Positions 25,875 through 33,170 of a DNA stretch of 64,000 nucleotides are shown in pieces; the first letter of the stretch is position 1, and every line of letters starts with the position of its first letter. This DNA comes from Anabaena sp. UHCC 0187 (lineage in GTDB: Bacteria > Cyanobacteriota > Cyanobacteriia > Cyanobacteriales > Nostocaceae). The stretch is taken from the NCBI RefSeq assembly GCF_009712035.1, contig NZ_VILB01000003.1, forward strand, positions 124,001-188,000, in the 5' to 3' direction. Under the pieces are notes generated by a model, which was given only the letters and a program-made list of their open reading frames with translations, had not been told where the DNA came from and made no database searches. A program made the position numbers and the translations under genes.

Positions 25875-27569
25875 ATGCTGCGATTAGAACATATCAGTAA
25901 AATTTATCCTACAGGCGAAGTTCTTAAAGATATCAACTGGGAAGTCAAACCAGGAGATCGTATTGGTTTAGTTGGCGTTAATGGTGCGGGAAAATCCACC
26001 CAACTAAAAATCATCTCCGGGGAGATTGAACCCACCGCTGGGGAAATTATTCGCCCTTCCAGCTTACATATAGCTTATCTTAACCAAGAGTTTGAGGTTG
26101 ACCCCACTCGCACAGTCAGAGAAGAATTTTGGACTGTATTTAAAGAAGCCAACGAAGTGCAGATGGCTTTAGCTCATATTCCCCATGAGATGGAAACGGC
26201 TAATCCAGAAGAGTTAGATGAACTCATTCATCAGTTAGATCGGTTGCAGCGTCAATTTGAGGCTTTAGACGGATATAACTTAGACTCACGGATTGGTAAG
26301 ATTTTACCAGAGATGGGATTTCAACTCGAAGATGGCGATCGCCTAGTTAGTGCCTTCTCCGGTGGTTGGCAAATGCGGATGAGTTTAGGCAAAATTCTCC
26401 TGCAAAAACCTGACTTGTTACTACTGGACGAACCGACAAACCACTTAGATTTAGAAACCATTGAGTGGTTAGAAAATTACCTGCGCGGTTTAATTACCCC
26501 CATGGTGATAGTTTCCCATGACCGGGAATTTTTAGATCGTCTTTGTAACCAAATTGTCGAAACTGAACGGGGTGTTTCCAGTTCTTACCTGGGTAATTAT
26601 TCATCCTATTTACAACAAAAAGCCGAAAATCAATACGCACAACTTAACGCTTACGAACGTCAGCAAAAAGAATTAGAAAAACAACAAGCATTTGTAGATA
26701 AATTCCGCGCTAGTGCAACTCGCAGTACCCAAGCAAAAAGCCGGGAAAAACAACTAGACAAAATTGAACGCATCGAAGCACCGACAGGAGGAATGAGAAC
26801 TCTGCATTTCCGTTTTCCTGATGCCACTCGTAGCGGTAGAGAAGTTGTAGAAATTAAGGATTTAACCCATATTTATGGGGATAAAATTCTGTTTTTATCA
26901 GCAAATCTCCTAGTAGAAAGAGGAGACAGAATTGCGTTTCTCGGTCCCAATGGTGCGGGTAAATCCACACTGTTGAAAATTATGATGGGTGTAGAACCAC
27001 CTACAGAAGGGATTGTGAAATTGGGTGATCACAACGTTATTCCCGGTTACTTCGAGCAAAACCAAGCGGAAGCGTTGGATTTAAATAAAACCGTCATGGA
27101 AACTATTCATGATGAAGTTCCTAATTGGACAAACGAAGAAGTCCGCACACTGTTAGGAAGATTCTTATTTACTGGTGATACCGTATTTAAGAAAGTTGGG
27201 GCATTGAGTGGAGGTGAAAAAGCTCGGTTAGCATTAGCAAAAATGCTTTTACGTCCAGCGAATTTAATCATTCTGGATGAGCCTACCAACCACTTAGATA
27301 TTCCAGCAAAAGAAATGATGGAAGAGGCTTTGCAAAACTATGAAGGTACAGCCCTTGTAGTTTCCCACGACCGTTATTTTATCTCCCAAGTAGCTAATAA
27401 AATTGTGGAAATTCGTGATGGTGAATTCCGCGTTTATTTAGGAGATTATCACTACTATCTCGATAAGAAAGCCGAAGAGAAAGAACTAGCGGAATTAGCA
27501 GCAGCAGAAGCCGAAAAAGCTGCTAAGAAAGCGGCAAAGGCTGCTAAAGCTGGAGCAAAGCAGAAATAG
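25875..27569 (+). CDS. ABC-F family ATP-binding protein
   Basis: A soluble twin-ATPase without membrane domain. The first Walker A is GVNGAGKST (34-42), with signature AFSGGWQMR and Walker B LLLLDEPTNHLD. The second repeats the set: FLGPNGAGKST, GALSGGEKARL, LIILDEPTNHLD. The linker between the domains is the charged helical 'ABC-F linker' (about residues 240-300). The C-terminus is an Ala/Lys/Glu-rich helix. ABC-F proteins act on the ribosome (EttA, Uup and YbiT types) or in resistance. Which subgroup this belongs to cannot be settled here. Confidence 0.9.
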   Translation: MLRLEHISKIYPTGEVLKDINWEVKPGDRIGLVGVNGAGKSTQLKIISGEIEPTAGEIIRPSSLHIAYLNQEFEVDPTRTVREEFWTVFKEANEVQMALAHIPHEMETANPEELDELIHQLDRLQRQFEALDGYNLDSRIGKILPEMGFQLEDGDRLVSAFSGGWQMRMSLGKILLQKPDLLLLDEPTNHLDLETIEWLENYLRGLITPMVIVSHDREFLDRLCNQIVETERGVSSSYLGNYSSYLQQKAENQYAQLNAYERQQKELEKQQAFVDKFRASATRSTQAKSREKQLDKIERIEAPTGGMRTLHFRFPDATRSGREVVEIKDLTHIYGDKILFLSANLLVERGDRIAFLGPNGAGKSTLLKIMMGVEPPTEGIVKLGDHNVIPGYFEQNQAEALDLNKTVMETIHDEVPNWTNEEVRTLLGRFLFTGDTVFKKVGALSGGEKARLALAKMLLRPANLIILDEPTNHLDIPAKEMMEEALQNYEGTALVVSHDRYFISQVANKIVEIRDGEFRVYLGDYHYYLDKKAEEKELAELAAAEAEKAAKKAAKAAKAGAKQK

Positions 27570-27585
27570 GTAATATCGGCAAATG

Positions 27586-27624
27586 GGTGACTGATTGTGA
27601 TTCTGGCTTTCTGTCACCTATTTT
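27586..27624 (+). terminator. Terminator after the ABC-F gene
   Basis: A 6-bp stem (GGTGAC/GTCACC) with a 21-nt loop is followed directly by TATTTTTTAAG. It starts 17 nt after the stop codon. Confidence 0.55.
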
Positions 27625-27738
27625 TTAAGAATGAGATTTTAAGAATTATTGAACGCAGATGAACGCAGATAAACACAGATAAATATTGATGATTATTATT
27701 CTGTGCAGTCTCAGATAAAATTAGTATTACAAGAGAAA

Positions 27739-28359
27739 TTACATAGCAACAACACCCCCGGATGCAAAGACTTGTTTTGCTGTTAATTGTAAGTTGGGAA
27801 AGATTGAGGAAACGAGTTGCTCATTGTTTTGAAACAATCGCTTTTGATACTCATCTTCTACTAATGTACAAATTGTCACTGTTGGCTGTTTGATTTTGCC
27901 AATATATTCTCTACCACCAATGCCTAAATAATCTACAATCCAATATTCAGGAACAGCTAATAGGGCGTAATCTTCAACTTTGCGAGCATAATCATTTTGC
28001 CAGTTTGTACTCACGACTTCAGCAATTAGTTTAATTGATTTTCCTGATGTAATTACAGGCTCTTTTTGCCATAATGGTTCATTGATTAGTTGGGTTTGGT
28101 CTAATACGATTACATCGGGACGAAAGGCTGTGTTTGTTCCCAATAGTTTGATCAAGCAGCGATGGGGGATAAAGTATGGTAAGTCTTGATGATCAATTTG
28201 TACATTCAGTTTTCGCCCAATTAAAGATGATACTTGTTCATGAGGTCCTGTTGGTTCCATCTCGATTAATTCCCCATCAATAAGTTCATAGCACTCATTG
28301 TCGCCATACTGAGCAATAAATTCATTAACTGTGATTAGTTTTAGGGCTGATTGTACCAT
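27739..28359 (-). CDS. Uma2 family (DUF820) endonuclease-like protein
   Basis: A full-length 206-residue member of the cyanobacterial Uma2/DUF820 family, which has a PD-(D/E)XK nuclease fold. Recognisable pieces are ELIDGELIEMEPTGPHEQVS, NTAFRPDVIVLDQTQL, KLIAEVVSTNWQNDYARKVEDYALL and VPEYWIVDYLGIGGREYIG. The Asp in RPDVIV and the Glu in IAEV are the likely metal ligands. Such genes are multicopy in cyanobacteria and their role is unproven. A degraded relative is at 21429. Confidence 0.85.
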   Translation of the reverse strand: MVQSALKLITVNEFIAQYGDNECYELIDGELIEMEPTGPHEQVSSLIGRKLNVQIDHQDLPYFIPHRCLIKLLGTNTAFRPDVIVLDQTQLINEPLWQKEPVITSGKSIKLIAEVVSTNWQNDYARKVEDYALLAVPEYWIVDYLGIGGREYIGKIKQPTVTICTLVEDEYQKRLFQNNEQLVSSIFPNLQLTAKQVFASGGVVAM

Positions 28360-28387
28360 TATTATGTTTCTTGCTAATTAAATAAAG

Positions 28388-28495
28388 ATTATTCGGGCGG
28401 TTGGAAATCGGATCTACACAAATAAAACCCACCTGCATAGATTAAAATTAACAGATTATTCTGGCGATTGGAAACCGCATCTACACGAATAAAAC
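28388..28495. repeat. Two copies of a ~41-bp dispersed repeat
   Basis: GATTATTCGGGCGGTTGGAA... (28388-28428) and GATTATTCTGGCGATTGGAA... (28454-28495) share most positions and both end in CTACAC(A/G)AATAAAAC. The period is 66 nt. They lie in the 311-nt gap (28360-28670) between the Uma2 gene and the psaE-like gene. The unit resembles GC-rich dispersed repeats of Nostocales and is not a CRISPR: there are only two copies, diverged, and the spacer is not bounded cleanly. Nothing else is seen in this gap apart from the AAGGGAAGG ribosome-binding site of the next gene. Confidence 0.7.
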
Positions 28496-28670
28496 TTAAT
28501 TTGAGACTCATGGGCATTGCTAAACCCTTGCAGTGCTTATTGCCTATTTCCCATGCTCTATTCCCGAAAAATAACTTAACAAACCCATTACTAAAGTCCT
28601 TCGAGTTGTAGAGTTAAAACAAGCACTCCTGATTTCTTGGTACTCTTACAATCCAAAGGGAAGGTACAAT

Positions 28671-29723
28671 ATGGTTCAACGTGGTTCTAAAGTTCGGATT
28701 CTCCGCCCTGAATGCTACTGGTTTCAGGATGTTGGTACAGTGGTTTCTATGGACAAAAGCGCCATCAAATACCCTATAATTGTTCGTTTTGACAAAGTTA
28801 ACTATTCTGATCTGAACACTAACAACTTTGCTTTGGATGAACTCGTCGAAGTGGCACACCCATCAGCTACTCAAGCTCCAAATGTAGCACAAACGGCATC
28901 CAATTCTTTATTAGAGATATCCGCAAATGAATTTCAAACCCTTATAAATCAAGCGTCAAAATCTGATTTTTGGATAATTATATTGAGGTCTTTAGCTAGT
29001 GCAGGTGCAATAGCGACTCAAAAATTGGGAGAAATAGCCCGTAACATAAAATTTGATAACTTACCATCAGATTTAAAATCCAAATTTGCGCGGGCAGGAA
29101 TGCGTGGCAATTCGCGGGATATTCAAGCAGCACAAGAAGTGTTTGAAAGTATACCTGCCCAAATTCGCGCCCAGGGACTTGAGGCAGTGCAGCAATTTCT
29201 TCAAGATAAAGACTGGAGTCACATTATTGCCCGTGTTAATGGTGGTAACAATAAAGCTGGTAATGGTATTTTTGAAATCTATCGGCTTAACCGCGCTCGT
29301 GGTGGTGTTAATATGACACCAAAAGAATTAAACGCCGCTAGACAAGTTTTAGCTGATGCTGCTTTTAAAGCCGCAGTTACGGAAATTATTGCAGGAGCGG
29401 TGAAAGGGGGTGTGGTAGCCGCATCTGTAGAATTAGTATTTTCAATTTTTGAAAATTCACTATTATATTCAGAGGGAAAAATTACTAAGGATGAGTTGAT
29501 TAAAAAAGTTGTTTCTGATACTGCTCAAGCGGGGCTGACTGGTAGCATAATTACAGGTATATTGCTCACAATTGGTATGATTTTTCCTCCTATTGCTGCT
29601 GTCTTAAGTGTGGTCGCTATACCTTTAGCTCTTGCTGGTGTGGCTTTGATGGGTAATCGAGTTTGGCAAATTTGTCTCCGCATATATTATAATGTTAAAA
29701 ACATTTTAAAAGAAAATACATAA
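28671..29723 (+). CDS. PsaE (photosystem I subunit IV) domain fused to a large membrane-associated domain
   Basis: Residues 1-61 are a clear PsaE, the SH3-like stromal subunit that helps dock ferredoxin: [33 protein letters not shown] and [14 protein letters not shown]. Normal PsaE ends near residue 70. Here the frame continues without interruption to residue 350. After an Ala/Ser/Thr linker (62-80) comes a mixed helical region. DWSHI (181-185), GGNN (191-194) and NRARGG (207-212) resemble a His-Asn nuclease-like motif set. Hydrophobic helices follow at about 236-262 and 290-328. AAGGGAAGG precedes the ATG. Whether this is the cell's working PsaE or an additional paralogue cannot be told from the window. 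It lies upstream of gpmI on the same strand. Confidence 0.8.
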
Positions 29724-29835
29724 TTATTTTCAATTTCTGTACTCTGTCTCCTGTCTCTTCTTCAATTTATTGCCTCAATTAGTTTTGAGTAGTGGTATTA
29801 TTCAAGTATTACAAAAAGTAAAGGGCAATTTTACT

Positions 29836-31434
29836 ATGACCAAAGCACCTGTTGCTCCTGTGGTGCTAGTCATTCTAGATGGATGGGGCTACTGTGAGGA
29901 AACGCGAGGAAACGCAATTACCGCTGCCAAAACTCCGATTATGGACAGTTTATGGGCAGTCTATCCCCACACCCTCATTCGCACATCAGGAAAAGCCGTA
30001 GGGTTGCCAGAAGGACAAATGGGCAACTCGGAAGTTGGTCATTTGAACATTGGCGCTGGTCGAGTCGTACCCCAAGAACTGGTACGGATCTCAGATGCTG
30101 TAGAAGACGGTTCTTTAGCCGCAAACCCAGCCCTTGTCAAAATTTGCCAAGAAGTGCGTTCTGCTAATGGCAAGTTACATCTAGTGGGGCTTTGTTCTGA
30201 TGGCGGGGTGCATTCCCATATTACCCATCTATTTGGACTACTTGACTTAGCAAAGGAACAGCAACTTTCACAAGTTTGTATCCACGCCATTACTGATGGC
30301 CGTGACACCAAACCGACAGATGCTATCAACGTCATCCAGCAATTGGAAGACTATATAGATAAAGTTGGCATCGGTGAAATCGCTACTATCAGCGGTCGCT
30401 ATTATGCCATGGATCGTGATAACCGTTGGGATCGAGTCCAACGCGCTTACGATGTGATGACGACGGATAGTGCGGGCAATGGACTCACGGCTGTAGAGGT
30501 ATTGCAAGCATCTTACGCTGAAGGTGTGACTGATGAGTTTGTTCTTCCAGTCCGTCTGCAACCAGGCGCGGTAGAATCTGGAGATGGGGTAATATTTTTT
30601 AATTTCCGCCCCGACCGCGCTAGAGAACTAACTCAAGCTTTTGTTAGTCATACTTTTAACGGTTTTGAAAGACAGCCAATTAAGCCGCTTTCTTTTGTAA
30701 CTTTTACTCAGTATGATCCAGAATTGCCAGTTTCTGTGGCTTTTGCGCCGCAAAATCTGAGTAATATTCTCGGTGAAGTTATCGCTAATCGTGGTTTAAA
30801 GCAGTTTAGAACTGCGGAAACTGAAAAATACGCTCATGTCACCTACTTCTTTAACGGGGGACTAGAAGAACCCTGTGAGGGAGAAGACCGGGAATTAGTC
30901 AGTAGTCCCATGGTAGCGACTTATGATCAAGCCCCGGCGATGTCAGCACAAGCTGTGACAGATGTGGCGATCGCTGCCATTAGAAAGGGCATCTACTCCC
31001 TAGTGGTGATGAACTATGCTAACCCAGATATGGTAGGGCATACAGGACAAATCCCCGCTACTGTGACAGCCATTGAAGCCGTAGATCGCTGTTTAGGTCG
31101 TCTGATTGATGCTATTGGTAAAGCTGGTGGTACAGCAATTATTACTGCTGATCACGGCAATGCTGAGTATATGATGGATGAAGGTGGTAATCCTTGGACG
31201 GCGCATACTACTAACCCAGTTCCGTTAATTTTGGTAGAAGGTGAAAAAGCCAAAATACCCGGATATGGAACAGATGTGGAATTAAGAAATGATGGCAAAT
31301 TAGCCGATATTGCCCCAACTATTCTGGATATTTTACAAATATCTAAACCAGAAGAAATGACAGGGCAATCATTACTTAAAGCCGCAGAATATGATTTACA
31401 ACTAACTCGTACTCCTGTACAAATAGGTTTGTAA
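29836..31434 (+). CDS. gpmI: 2,3-bisphosphoglycerate-independent phosphoglycerate mutase
   Basis: Glycolytic/gluconeogenic enzyme interconverting 3- and 2-phosphoglycerate using two Mn ions and a serine. LVILDGWGYC (11-20) gives a metal-binding Asp, QMGNSEVGHLN (61-71) carries the phosphorylated Ser65, and TADHGNAEYM supplies C-terminal metal ligands. The ATG at 29836 (MTKAPVAPVV) is chosen; the frame opens 22 codons earlier with no matching sequence. The length is 532 residues. secG follows 76 nt downstream. Confidence 0.96.
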   Translation: MTKAPVAPVVLVILDGWGYCEETRGNAITAAKTPIMDSLWAVYPHTLIRTSGKAVGLPEGQMGNSEVGHLNIGAGRVVPQELVRISDAVEDGSLAANPALVKICQEVRSANGKLHLVGLCSDGGVHSHITHLFGLLDLAKEQQLSQVCIHAITDGRDTKPTDAINVIQQLEDYIDKVGIGEIATISGRYYAMDRDNRWDRVQRAYDVMTTDSAGNGLTAVEVLQASYAEGVTDEFVLPVRLQPGAVESGDGVIFFNFRPDRARELTQAFVSHTFNGFERQPIKPLSFVTFTQYDPELPVSVAFAPQNLSNILGEVIANRGLKQFRTAETEKYAHVTYFFNGGLEEPCEGEDRELVSSPMVATYDQAPAMSAQAVTDVAIAAIRKGIYSLVVMNYANPDMVGHTGQIPATVTAIEAVDRCLGRLIDAIGKAGGTAIITADHGNAEYMMDEGGNPWTAHTTNPVPLILVEGEKAKIPGYGTDVELRNDGKLADIAPTILDILQISKPEEMTGQSLLKAAEYDLQLTRTPVQIGL

Positions 31435-32570: not shown

Positions 32571-33170
32571 TCAATAGCTTTGACTCAGTTTATAGGGGTT
32601 ATTGGGATCTTTATTCCAACGCAAAGGATTTTGGAAAATGTATTGACGAGCGATATCTAAAATTTTCTGATTACGAATAATGCGGTCGTAATAATTGCGT
32701 TGCCATATACGCATTCCGGGAGTATCATCAATTTGATTAATAATTTTTGTTGTTTGATATTTGTAATAAGCAATAATTTGTCCCAAGGTCGTTTTCTTCC
32801 GTAGGGGCGGGGTCTCCCCGCCCGCTTCGGTATCCCGGTCCGCTTCGGTTTCCCTGGCTTCTTCGTGATTCTGTTGATGTTTTCTACCTTCATTAAAATT
32901 ATCATTAATCACAATAATTCCATGAACATGATTAGGCATAACAACAAATTCATCTAATTCCACATTAGGAAAATGTTCGGGTATTTTTAACCAAAATTCA
33001 TCAATAATAAAACCTCTGACTGTGAGTTTCATTTCTCCATTAATGATTTCACCTAAGTTACATTCACGGTTTTGGGTACAAATGGTGATGAAATATGCTC
33101 CTGGTTCTGAATAATCATAACCCCGCAAACGAATTGATTGGCGATGATGAATTTTAGGGTTATATTTCAT
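32571..33170 (-). CDS. REP-associated tyrosine transposase (RAYT, Y1 HUH fold)
   Basis: A 199-residue Y1-type protein. The start RQSIRLRGYDYSEPGAYFIT is typical of cyanobacterial RAYTs. CTQNRE, the HUH motif in VVMPNHVHGIIVI (His-U-His), and the C-terminal IDDTPGMRIWQRNYYDRIIRN with the catalytic Tyr are all present. Between HUH and tail, residues about 105-128 are an atypical Glu/Arg/Pro-rich insert (TEADRDTEAGGETPPLRKK) encoded by a REP palindrome plus a short tandem. The frame is intact. RAYTs move or maintain REP palindromes, and a REP array lies directly upstream. Confidence 0.85.
   Translation of the reverse strand: MKYNPKIHHRQSIRLRGYDYSEPGAYFITICTQNRECNLGEIINGEMKLTVRGFIIDEFWLKIPEHFPNVELDEFVVMPNHVHGIIVINDNFNEGRKHQQNHEEARETEADRDTEAGGETPPLRKKTTLGQIIAYYKYQTTKIINQIDDTPGMRIWQRNYYDRIIRNQKILDIARQYIFQNPLRWNKDPNNPYKLSQSY
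32801..32870. repeat. REP-type palindrome and short tandem inside the RAYT coding sequence
   Basis: GGGGCGGGG-TCT-CCCCGCCC (about 32804-32823) is a strong palindrome. Adjacent to it, CGCTTCGGTATCCCGGTC and CGCTTCGGTTTCCCTGG are imperfect direct copies. The block keeps the transposase frame and adds about 24 residues. Confidence 0.75.

Follow-up and report, generated by a model that had tools for sequence, protein, structure and literature searches.

The locus described here lies in a 64,000-nucleotide stretch of the genome of Anabaena sp. UHCC 0187, called the window throughout; the genome itself (G000) comprises 5.1 Mb in 57 contigs. Positions 28671-29723 of the window form a single open frame of 350 aa on the forward strand, in which a PsaE domain (residues 2-61) is joined by a linker of about 17 residues to a module that is predicted to be folded. 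The frame is preceded by a gene which we take to encode an ABC-F type ATPase (25875-27569, forward strand) and by a presumably Uma2-like gene (27739-28359, reverse strand), and it is followed by a phosphoglycerate mutase gene assumed to be of the gpmI type (29836-31434, forward strand). The ABC-F and gpmI genes are the left and right borders of a slot (27570-29835) whose contents differ among the congener regions compared (L125-L136), so that it is regarded as variable. The ABC-F gene stands at high identity upstream of gpmI in four of 12 such regions (L126, L132, L134, and L136), and also in a thirteenth (L076); in the other eight it was not found at high identity within the stretch. Read by eye, the slots of the four congeners hold an ATPase gene and a partner in three cases, one of them with an additional toxin-antitoxin-like pair, and a 701-aa protein in the remaining one. 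A close copy of the module is found in none of the other 15 congeners, and G005 has two distant copies. Near the slot, a transposase-like ORF of the REP-associated type was noticed by eye on the reverse strand (32571-33170).

A remnant of the same module is present in a genome of another genus (G055), in a 130-codon open frame between the same ABC-F and gpmI genes; 6.5 kb of that locus contain no match to PsaE. The dS between the fusion and this remnant is 0.19 (106 codons, the first 17 of them doubtfully aligned), far below the values of the flanking genes in the same two genomes (0.73 for gpmI and 1.0 for ABC-F), which points to an exchange of the module between lineages or to its late arrival in one of them.

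The N-terminal PsaE domain (residues 1-61; 28671-28853) is a paralogue of the genome's own psaE product. Its residues 2-61 match all 60 positions of PF02427 (PSI_PsaE; E 4.7e-32, 109.9 bits, cut-off 27), the fused protein scores 98.8 against the NCBIfam PsaE equivalog (cut-off 88), and its best match in the PDB is a cyanobacterial PsaE (E 2.4e-30). R39, a ferredoxin-related residue of PsaE, is present. The linker (residues 62-78 approximately; 28854-28904) contains no in-frame stop and has an unsure right border in alignment A3; according to the same alignment, the captured module begins with a helical part (residues 79-127 approximately; 28905-29051), at the start of which the structure model has low confidence. 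There follow a predicted HNH-like beta-beta-alpha core (residues 128-232 approximately; 29052-29366), recognized from an AlphaFold2 model and Foldseek, and a hydrophobic helical C-terminus (residues 233-350; 29367-29720) for which hydropathy and model helices make membrane insertion probable, all on the forward strand. A first-pass annotation of this DNA had described a near-standard PsaE fused in frame to a hydrophobic, probably membrane-associated module, and the profile match bears this out; the coordinates of the frame and the motifs DWSHI (181-185), GGNN (191-194), and NRARGG (207-212) are also as it gave them, and the long hydrophobic segments that it reported do exist, at corrected positions of about residues 226-266 and 285-332. 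It had named two observations that would speak against the fusion, namely a lost PsaE stop codon and separate genes in every close relative. As to the first, PsaE and the C-terminal homology lie in one and the same frame, and the other two frames, inspected by eye for a frameshift, show no PsaE tail; as to the second, both the fusion and a second psaE are absent from the remaining family genomes. The protein thus ends neither after the PsaE domain nor in a low-complexity tail: a module follows which the model predicts to be folded.

The fold of the different parts was predicted with unequal confidence. In the AlphaFold2 model of the whole chain the mean pLDDT is 61.4 and the PsaE part, at about 30, is not folded, so its SH3-like fold is taken only from its strong similarity in sequence to PsaE chains of known structure. 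The model of the C-terminal part (40 sequences) has a pLDDT of 77.1, with blocks of 89-95 over residues 128-227, and its core consists of two strands (180-184 and 199-203) and a helix (204-210), with S183, H184, N198, and N207 as its characteristic residues. Against viral models, Foldseek returns many HNH endonucleases with probabilities of 0.9-1.0 over 34-57 columns, all at E >0.1; against the PDB, the first model gives several Cas9 chains or Cas9 HNH domains below significance (best 0.58) under a designed protein in the top row, and the C-terminal model gives mostly generic helical proteins and three Cas9 rows. No HNH chain is found among the best 50 rows of VIA-align with the C-terminal model, a profile search of PDB sequences with the module yields nothing relevant, and Pfam, NCBIfam, and PHROGs provide only weak rows below cut-off for the module, the Pfam HNH family giving no row for either fusion query (P0001 or P0002). 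Three distant relatives reach 12.4-14.4 bits with Pfam HNH, below its cut-off of 21.4; of five homologues on plasmids, one carries the annotation HNH endonuclease and four are hypothetical. An acidic first metal ligand is usual ahead of the HNH histidine; in the module a serine stands there, in 40/40 rows of alignment A4. Because of this serine, of Pfam scores below cut-off and of weak structure matches, the core is called HNH-like and not an HNH nuclease, a designation that is likely to be right as far as the predicted models go. The suggestion of a toxin-like module is not supported, since the core is HNH-like with the serine just named and no toxin family matches at cut-off (weak rows only).

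The relatives of the module are stand-alone proteins of about 300 aa found in many cyanobacteria. Among 100 relatives, those of five order-level genomes match over at least 230 residues with 49-62% identity and E values down to 2.3e-90; the match of these five closest begins at residues 85-106 of the fusion in four and at residue 48 in one. Similarity to the stand-alone proteins is weak before about residue 105 and becomes clear from about residue 85-106, so that the border is blurred; PsaE and the linker take the place of an N-terminal stretch of roughly 25-50 residues in those relatives. Alignments A1 and A3 extend the homology across the core and the hydrophobic C-terminus of that family, and its native N-terminus is absent from the fusion. 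Within the taxonomic family, 63/217 genomes have a module match at E <=1e-6 (best 7.4e-93): besides G000, five match at more than 60% over about 230 residues, G055 has the remnant, and the rest stand at 26-36%. A scan of genome contigs provides 35 module loci, 32 of them in cyanobacteria and the other three in Acidobacteriota, Chloroflexota, and Gammaproteobacteria (one in each); in none of the 35 does PsaE lie beside or within the module (flanks up to 6 kb, some shorter), and no conserved partner gene stands out among these close loci. Two pattern matches in viral contigs are not relatives of the module. In the Acidobacteriota relative (L122:5218-6396), a PSK_trans_fac match (residues 35-79) precedes the HNH-like core in the same open frame, which is another different N-terminus on the module. 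Two further observations concern the surroundings of stand-alone homologues: those of Anabaena, Trichormus, and Cylindrospermum (L034-L038) lie near rhomboid-like protease genes, as judged by eye, and a gene of the ParM/StbA family is near the relatives on conjugative Nostoc and Trichormus plasmids (L175 and L176) in two of three regions viewed.

More distant relatives have partners. In 20 of the 23 loci L039-L061, a neighbour gene has a common N-terminal stretch of about 137 aa, which is followed by a dynamin-type GTPase in nine of the 20, by an actin-like protein in seven, and by neither in four within the DNA covered; Pfam assigns Dynamin_N to two and ALP_N to three of five such neighbours. 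These pairs are an apparent cassette with a swappable part. Neither the dynamin, actin-like, nor N-terminal stretches occur in the 44 close loci (35 and nine), and the partner stretches have no match in the window at E 0.01. With PADLOC, the distant relatives match PDC-M09B (best E 2.4e-6) and LeoBC weakly, and the fusion matches no family.

An ordinary psaE had been called for as a check, and one of 71 codons is present in the same genome at a separate locus (G000:C2:63770-63979). The PsaE profile matches 208/217 family genomes, with one copy in 207 and two only in G000. In the phylum sample 181/386 genomes match, and two copies are found in G000, G301, G498, and G523 among the matches listed; the copies read in the last three (one each in G301 and G523, both in G498) are not fused. 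No other C-terminal fusion of PsaE to a folded domain is present among the frames read at nine and 20 loci. The nine, chosen for long frames or second copies, have extra length upstream of the start or encode an ordinary protein, and the 20 further long-frame cases are PsaE proteins with tails. Nor is a further fusion found in the 217 family genomes, the 35 module loci, or the viral contigs, plasmids, and phages searched, and a natural PsaE fusion is reported nowhere in the literature listings searched. The PsaE fusion has been seen in one genome; it is unique on the searches made, and any function that it may have is possibly fading.

The usual length of PsaE deserves a comment. The first-pass annotation had PsaE ending near residue 70, which is too narrow, since PsaE has 102-161 aa in 20/20 genomes chosen for their long frames. 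Chain V (PsaE) of PDB entry 7qco has 126 aa, and the accessible portion of the structure paper does not mention the extension. The added stretches resemble tails of low complexity and not folded domains. Tails of about 35-95 residues are found on many cyanobacterial PsaE proteins (L154-L173). In 16/20 of those read the last three residues (often ESR or DSR) follow NQGT or GQGT, and a middle motif like GGKQTTIDERTRTTGQG is common to many; both features suggest a conserved role.

It is important to note that the fused psaE did not come alone. BLASTN of the fusion against the genome's own psaE locus finds similarity from about 28566 to 28852 (80% over 288 columns); as it begins ahead of the ATG, about 105 bp of upstream DNA came along. 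This psaE-type upstream region (28566-28670, forward strand) carries AAATAACTTAACAA at 28569 and TTGTAGAGT at 28606. The first of these motifs occurs once in the window, is exact in 36/40 psaE upstream rows (from 39 genomes, G056 appearing twice) at 79-88 bases from the ATG, and stands at 88 in the fusion; the second is exact in the fusion and in 20/40 rows. In its 5′ half, the conserved upstream element reads TTGACAAA in the own psaE and CCGAAAAA in the fusion; that half varies among normal psaE genes too. In the coding part, 28/183 bases differ between fused and own psaE, and the nearest of 38 psaE genes compared differs at 21/183. A tree that includes the upstream DNA places the fused psaE beside the clade of congeners (support 69.6/90), a tree of coding DNA places it inside the genus, next to 11/15 congener sequences (83.2/80 on the next split), and a tree of 13 sequences, which has no support values, also puts it among congeners. 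This placement, of modest support, together with the 28 differences indicates a diverged paralogue of the genus or its stem and not a fresh copy. Two synonymous and two non-synonymous sites of the fused psaE are unique against the 38 others, and its C15 and I36 rest on base states absent from those genes. That psaE was captured together with its upstream DNA is very probable. The published RpaB motif (HLR1) was also tried in psaE upstream DNA, in a form with a 4-base spacer (the accessible text of a review, PMC13421787, gives 2 bases), and no claim is built on it: the fusion has four mismatches, the best sites of congeners two to three, and shuffles mostly four to six. Just upstream of the captured region, at 28386-28495, lie two direct repeats of 43 bases which are 88% alike; the pattern used found this repeat at no further place in the genome.

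Whether the two halves are maintained was approached with codon models, run with a custom script; the likelihood-ratio tests (LRT) are approximate (one unrefined psaE fit gave an LRT of -0.007). The PsaE half bears the mark of ordinary purifying selection: compared pairwise with 12 others, the fused psaE has a dN/dS of 0.08-0.24, and a branch model (13 of 39 sequences, 61 codons) gives an omega of 0.115 against a background of 0.119, with omega = 1 rejected (LRT 15.5); this branch is long, so the constraint may largely predate the fusion. The C-terminal part has an omega of 0.125 on the whole long branch (LRT against 1 of 92.3; 14 sequences, 273 codons), a branch that is saturated. For the membrane part (89 codons) after fusion and G055 remnant separated, a joint fit of both end branches gives an omega of 1.38, which does not differ from 1 (LRT 0.46) and lies far above the background (LRT 34.7). 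When each branch is fitted alone, its omega rises beyond 7 and reaches or nearly reaches the bound; the LRT against 1 is then 2.2 for the fusion and 3.9 for the remnant. These values come from a refit: the first fit of the membrane segment, of 106 codons including 17 doubtfully aligned ones, gave 3.9 on the fusion branch (LRT against background 13.7) and a remnant branch at the bound. The fusion has changed 27/127 columns that are invariant in the close family (30/130 counting gaps), nine close members having changed 0-18 of 130-148 columns, and it keeps 19/19 positions conserved in the superfamily. On these estimates the module is one that was long constrained and whose membrane part is now relaxed, which weakens the case for a strongly selected new module of photosystem I. 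A selected function of the chimera today is given somewhat less than an even chance.

The recent omega of about 1 that fusion and remnant show in their membrane segments, and the restriction of the fusion to one genome, are what an accidental chimera on its way to decay would leave, that is, a protein with no selected role whose frame is open because little time has passed. This explanation survives best among the alternatives and has a substantial minority claim. It has to account, however, for 350 open codons (by a substitutions-only estimate the probability of no stop in the C-terminal part is 0.24 at 0.05 changes per site and 0.06 at 0.1), for the unchanged superfamily positions, and for the low omega of the PsaE half.

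An unlikelier alternative, compatible with the other explanations, is that a ready-made fusion formed elsewhere and moved into the slot, the G055 remnant being a truncated descendant that has lost PsaE. The low dS between fusion and remnant relative to the flanking genes agrees with such a transfer, but in the trees the fused psaE falls into this genus or next to it and not with the psaE of G055, so that the addition of PsaE probably took place in the genus or on its stem, and no second fusion was met in any of the collections searched.

Promoter capture is a little less probable still. According to this proposal the module benefits from expression of the psaE type, responsive to light, and the PsaE domain is tolerated only as an N-terminal passenger. 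The copied upstream DNA, with AAATAACTTAACAA intact at its normal distance, fits the proposal, as does the listing of psaE as an RpaB-activated gene in PCC 7942 and PCC 6803 in the accessible part of the review cited above (PMC13421787). Nonetheless, the 5′ half of the upstream element differs, and a passenger should drift, whereas the PsaE half is constrained (on a branch that is perhaps partly older than the fusion). Lastly, an assembly or sequencing artefact joining two genes would suit a single carrier genome and is very improbable, given that the fused psaE is at least 21/183 bases away from each of the 38 psaE genes compared and too different from the own gene to be a mis-assembled copy of it, has its own upstream DNA, and sits inside a contig of 254,913 bases; the fusion is almost certainly real.

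The preferred explanation, held at about even chances, is that a membrane-anchored HNH-like protein captured psaE with both its control region and its docking domain, docking on photosystem I being the inferred part. A psaE paralogue, consisting of about 105 bp of upstream DNA and codons 1-61, lies in frame before the module gene. The copied upstream region would drive photosynthesis-type expression of the chimera, the near-canonical PsaE domain would in some of the complexes occupy the PsaE site at the stromal side of photosystem I, and the hydrophobic C-terminus would lie in the thylakoid membrane; docking and membrane anchoring together would keep the HNH-like core beside photosystem I. From the sequence, expression of the chimera is slightly favoured, and docking on photosystem I is a tentative proposal that would sooner fail than hold. 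The hybrid may dock on photosystem I, or it may be starting to decay. The most far-reaching version, a natural address tag by which a PsaE paralogue under psaE-type light control would bring an HNH-like module, anchored in the membrane, to the stromal face of photosystem I and so couple a variable-slot module to the state of photosynthesis, is improbable and is offered as a speculation. Should the chimera be expressed and docked, the engineered PsaE fusions by which enzymes are tied to photosystem I would have a natural counterpart, the PsaE site would be seen to work as a landing place, and a first handle would be gained on an unnamed and widespread family of HNH-like membrane proteins; if the chimera is not, it would provide a clean case of psaE capture followed by relaxed constraint.

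Compared with known systems, the fusion is closest in its module to the stand-alone HNH-like membrane family of Microcoleus, Planktothrix, Anabaena, and others (L004-L008, L034-L038, and L090-L121), with which it has 45-56% identity, the core motif and the hydrophobic C-terminus in common; unlike the fusion, these proteins have their native N-terminus and no PsaE. With HNH endonucleases (PF01844, Cas9 HNH, and phage HNH) it shares H184, N198, and N207 in HNH-like order in a predicted beta-beta-alpha core, and it differs from them by the serine in place of the acidic residue, by the lack of an above-cut-off Pfam match, and by the attached hydrophobic helical region. LeoBC and PDC-M09B (PADLOC-DB) are weakly matched by the distant relatives of the module and not by the fusion; LeoABC of E. 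coli is described as a set of bacterial dynamins in the accessible text of PMC4159319. PsaE itself (PF02427) is matched at every model position, and psaE-type upstream DNA is likewise present, but the fusion has 350 aa in place of about 70 (or of 102-161 in tailed forms), bears an extra, hydrophobic module with a predicted fold, and is a second genomic copy. The nearest designed parallel is PsaE-16-HoxUYH, an engineered fusion mutant used in Synechocystis, which like the present protein carries a cargo on PsaE and which the accessible part of its report (PMC12887603) describes as stably connected with photosystem I; that construct is man-made and its cargo is a hydrogenase, whereas the fusion is natural and carries a membrane HNH-like module.
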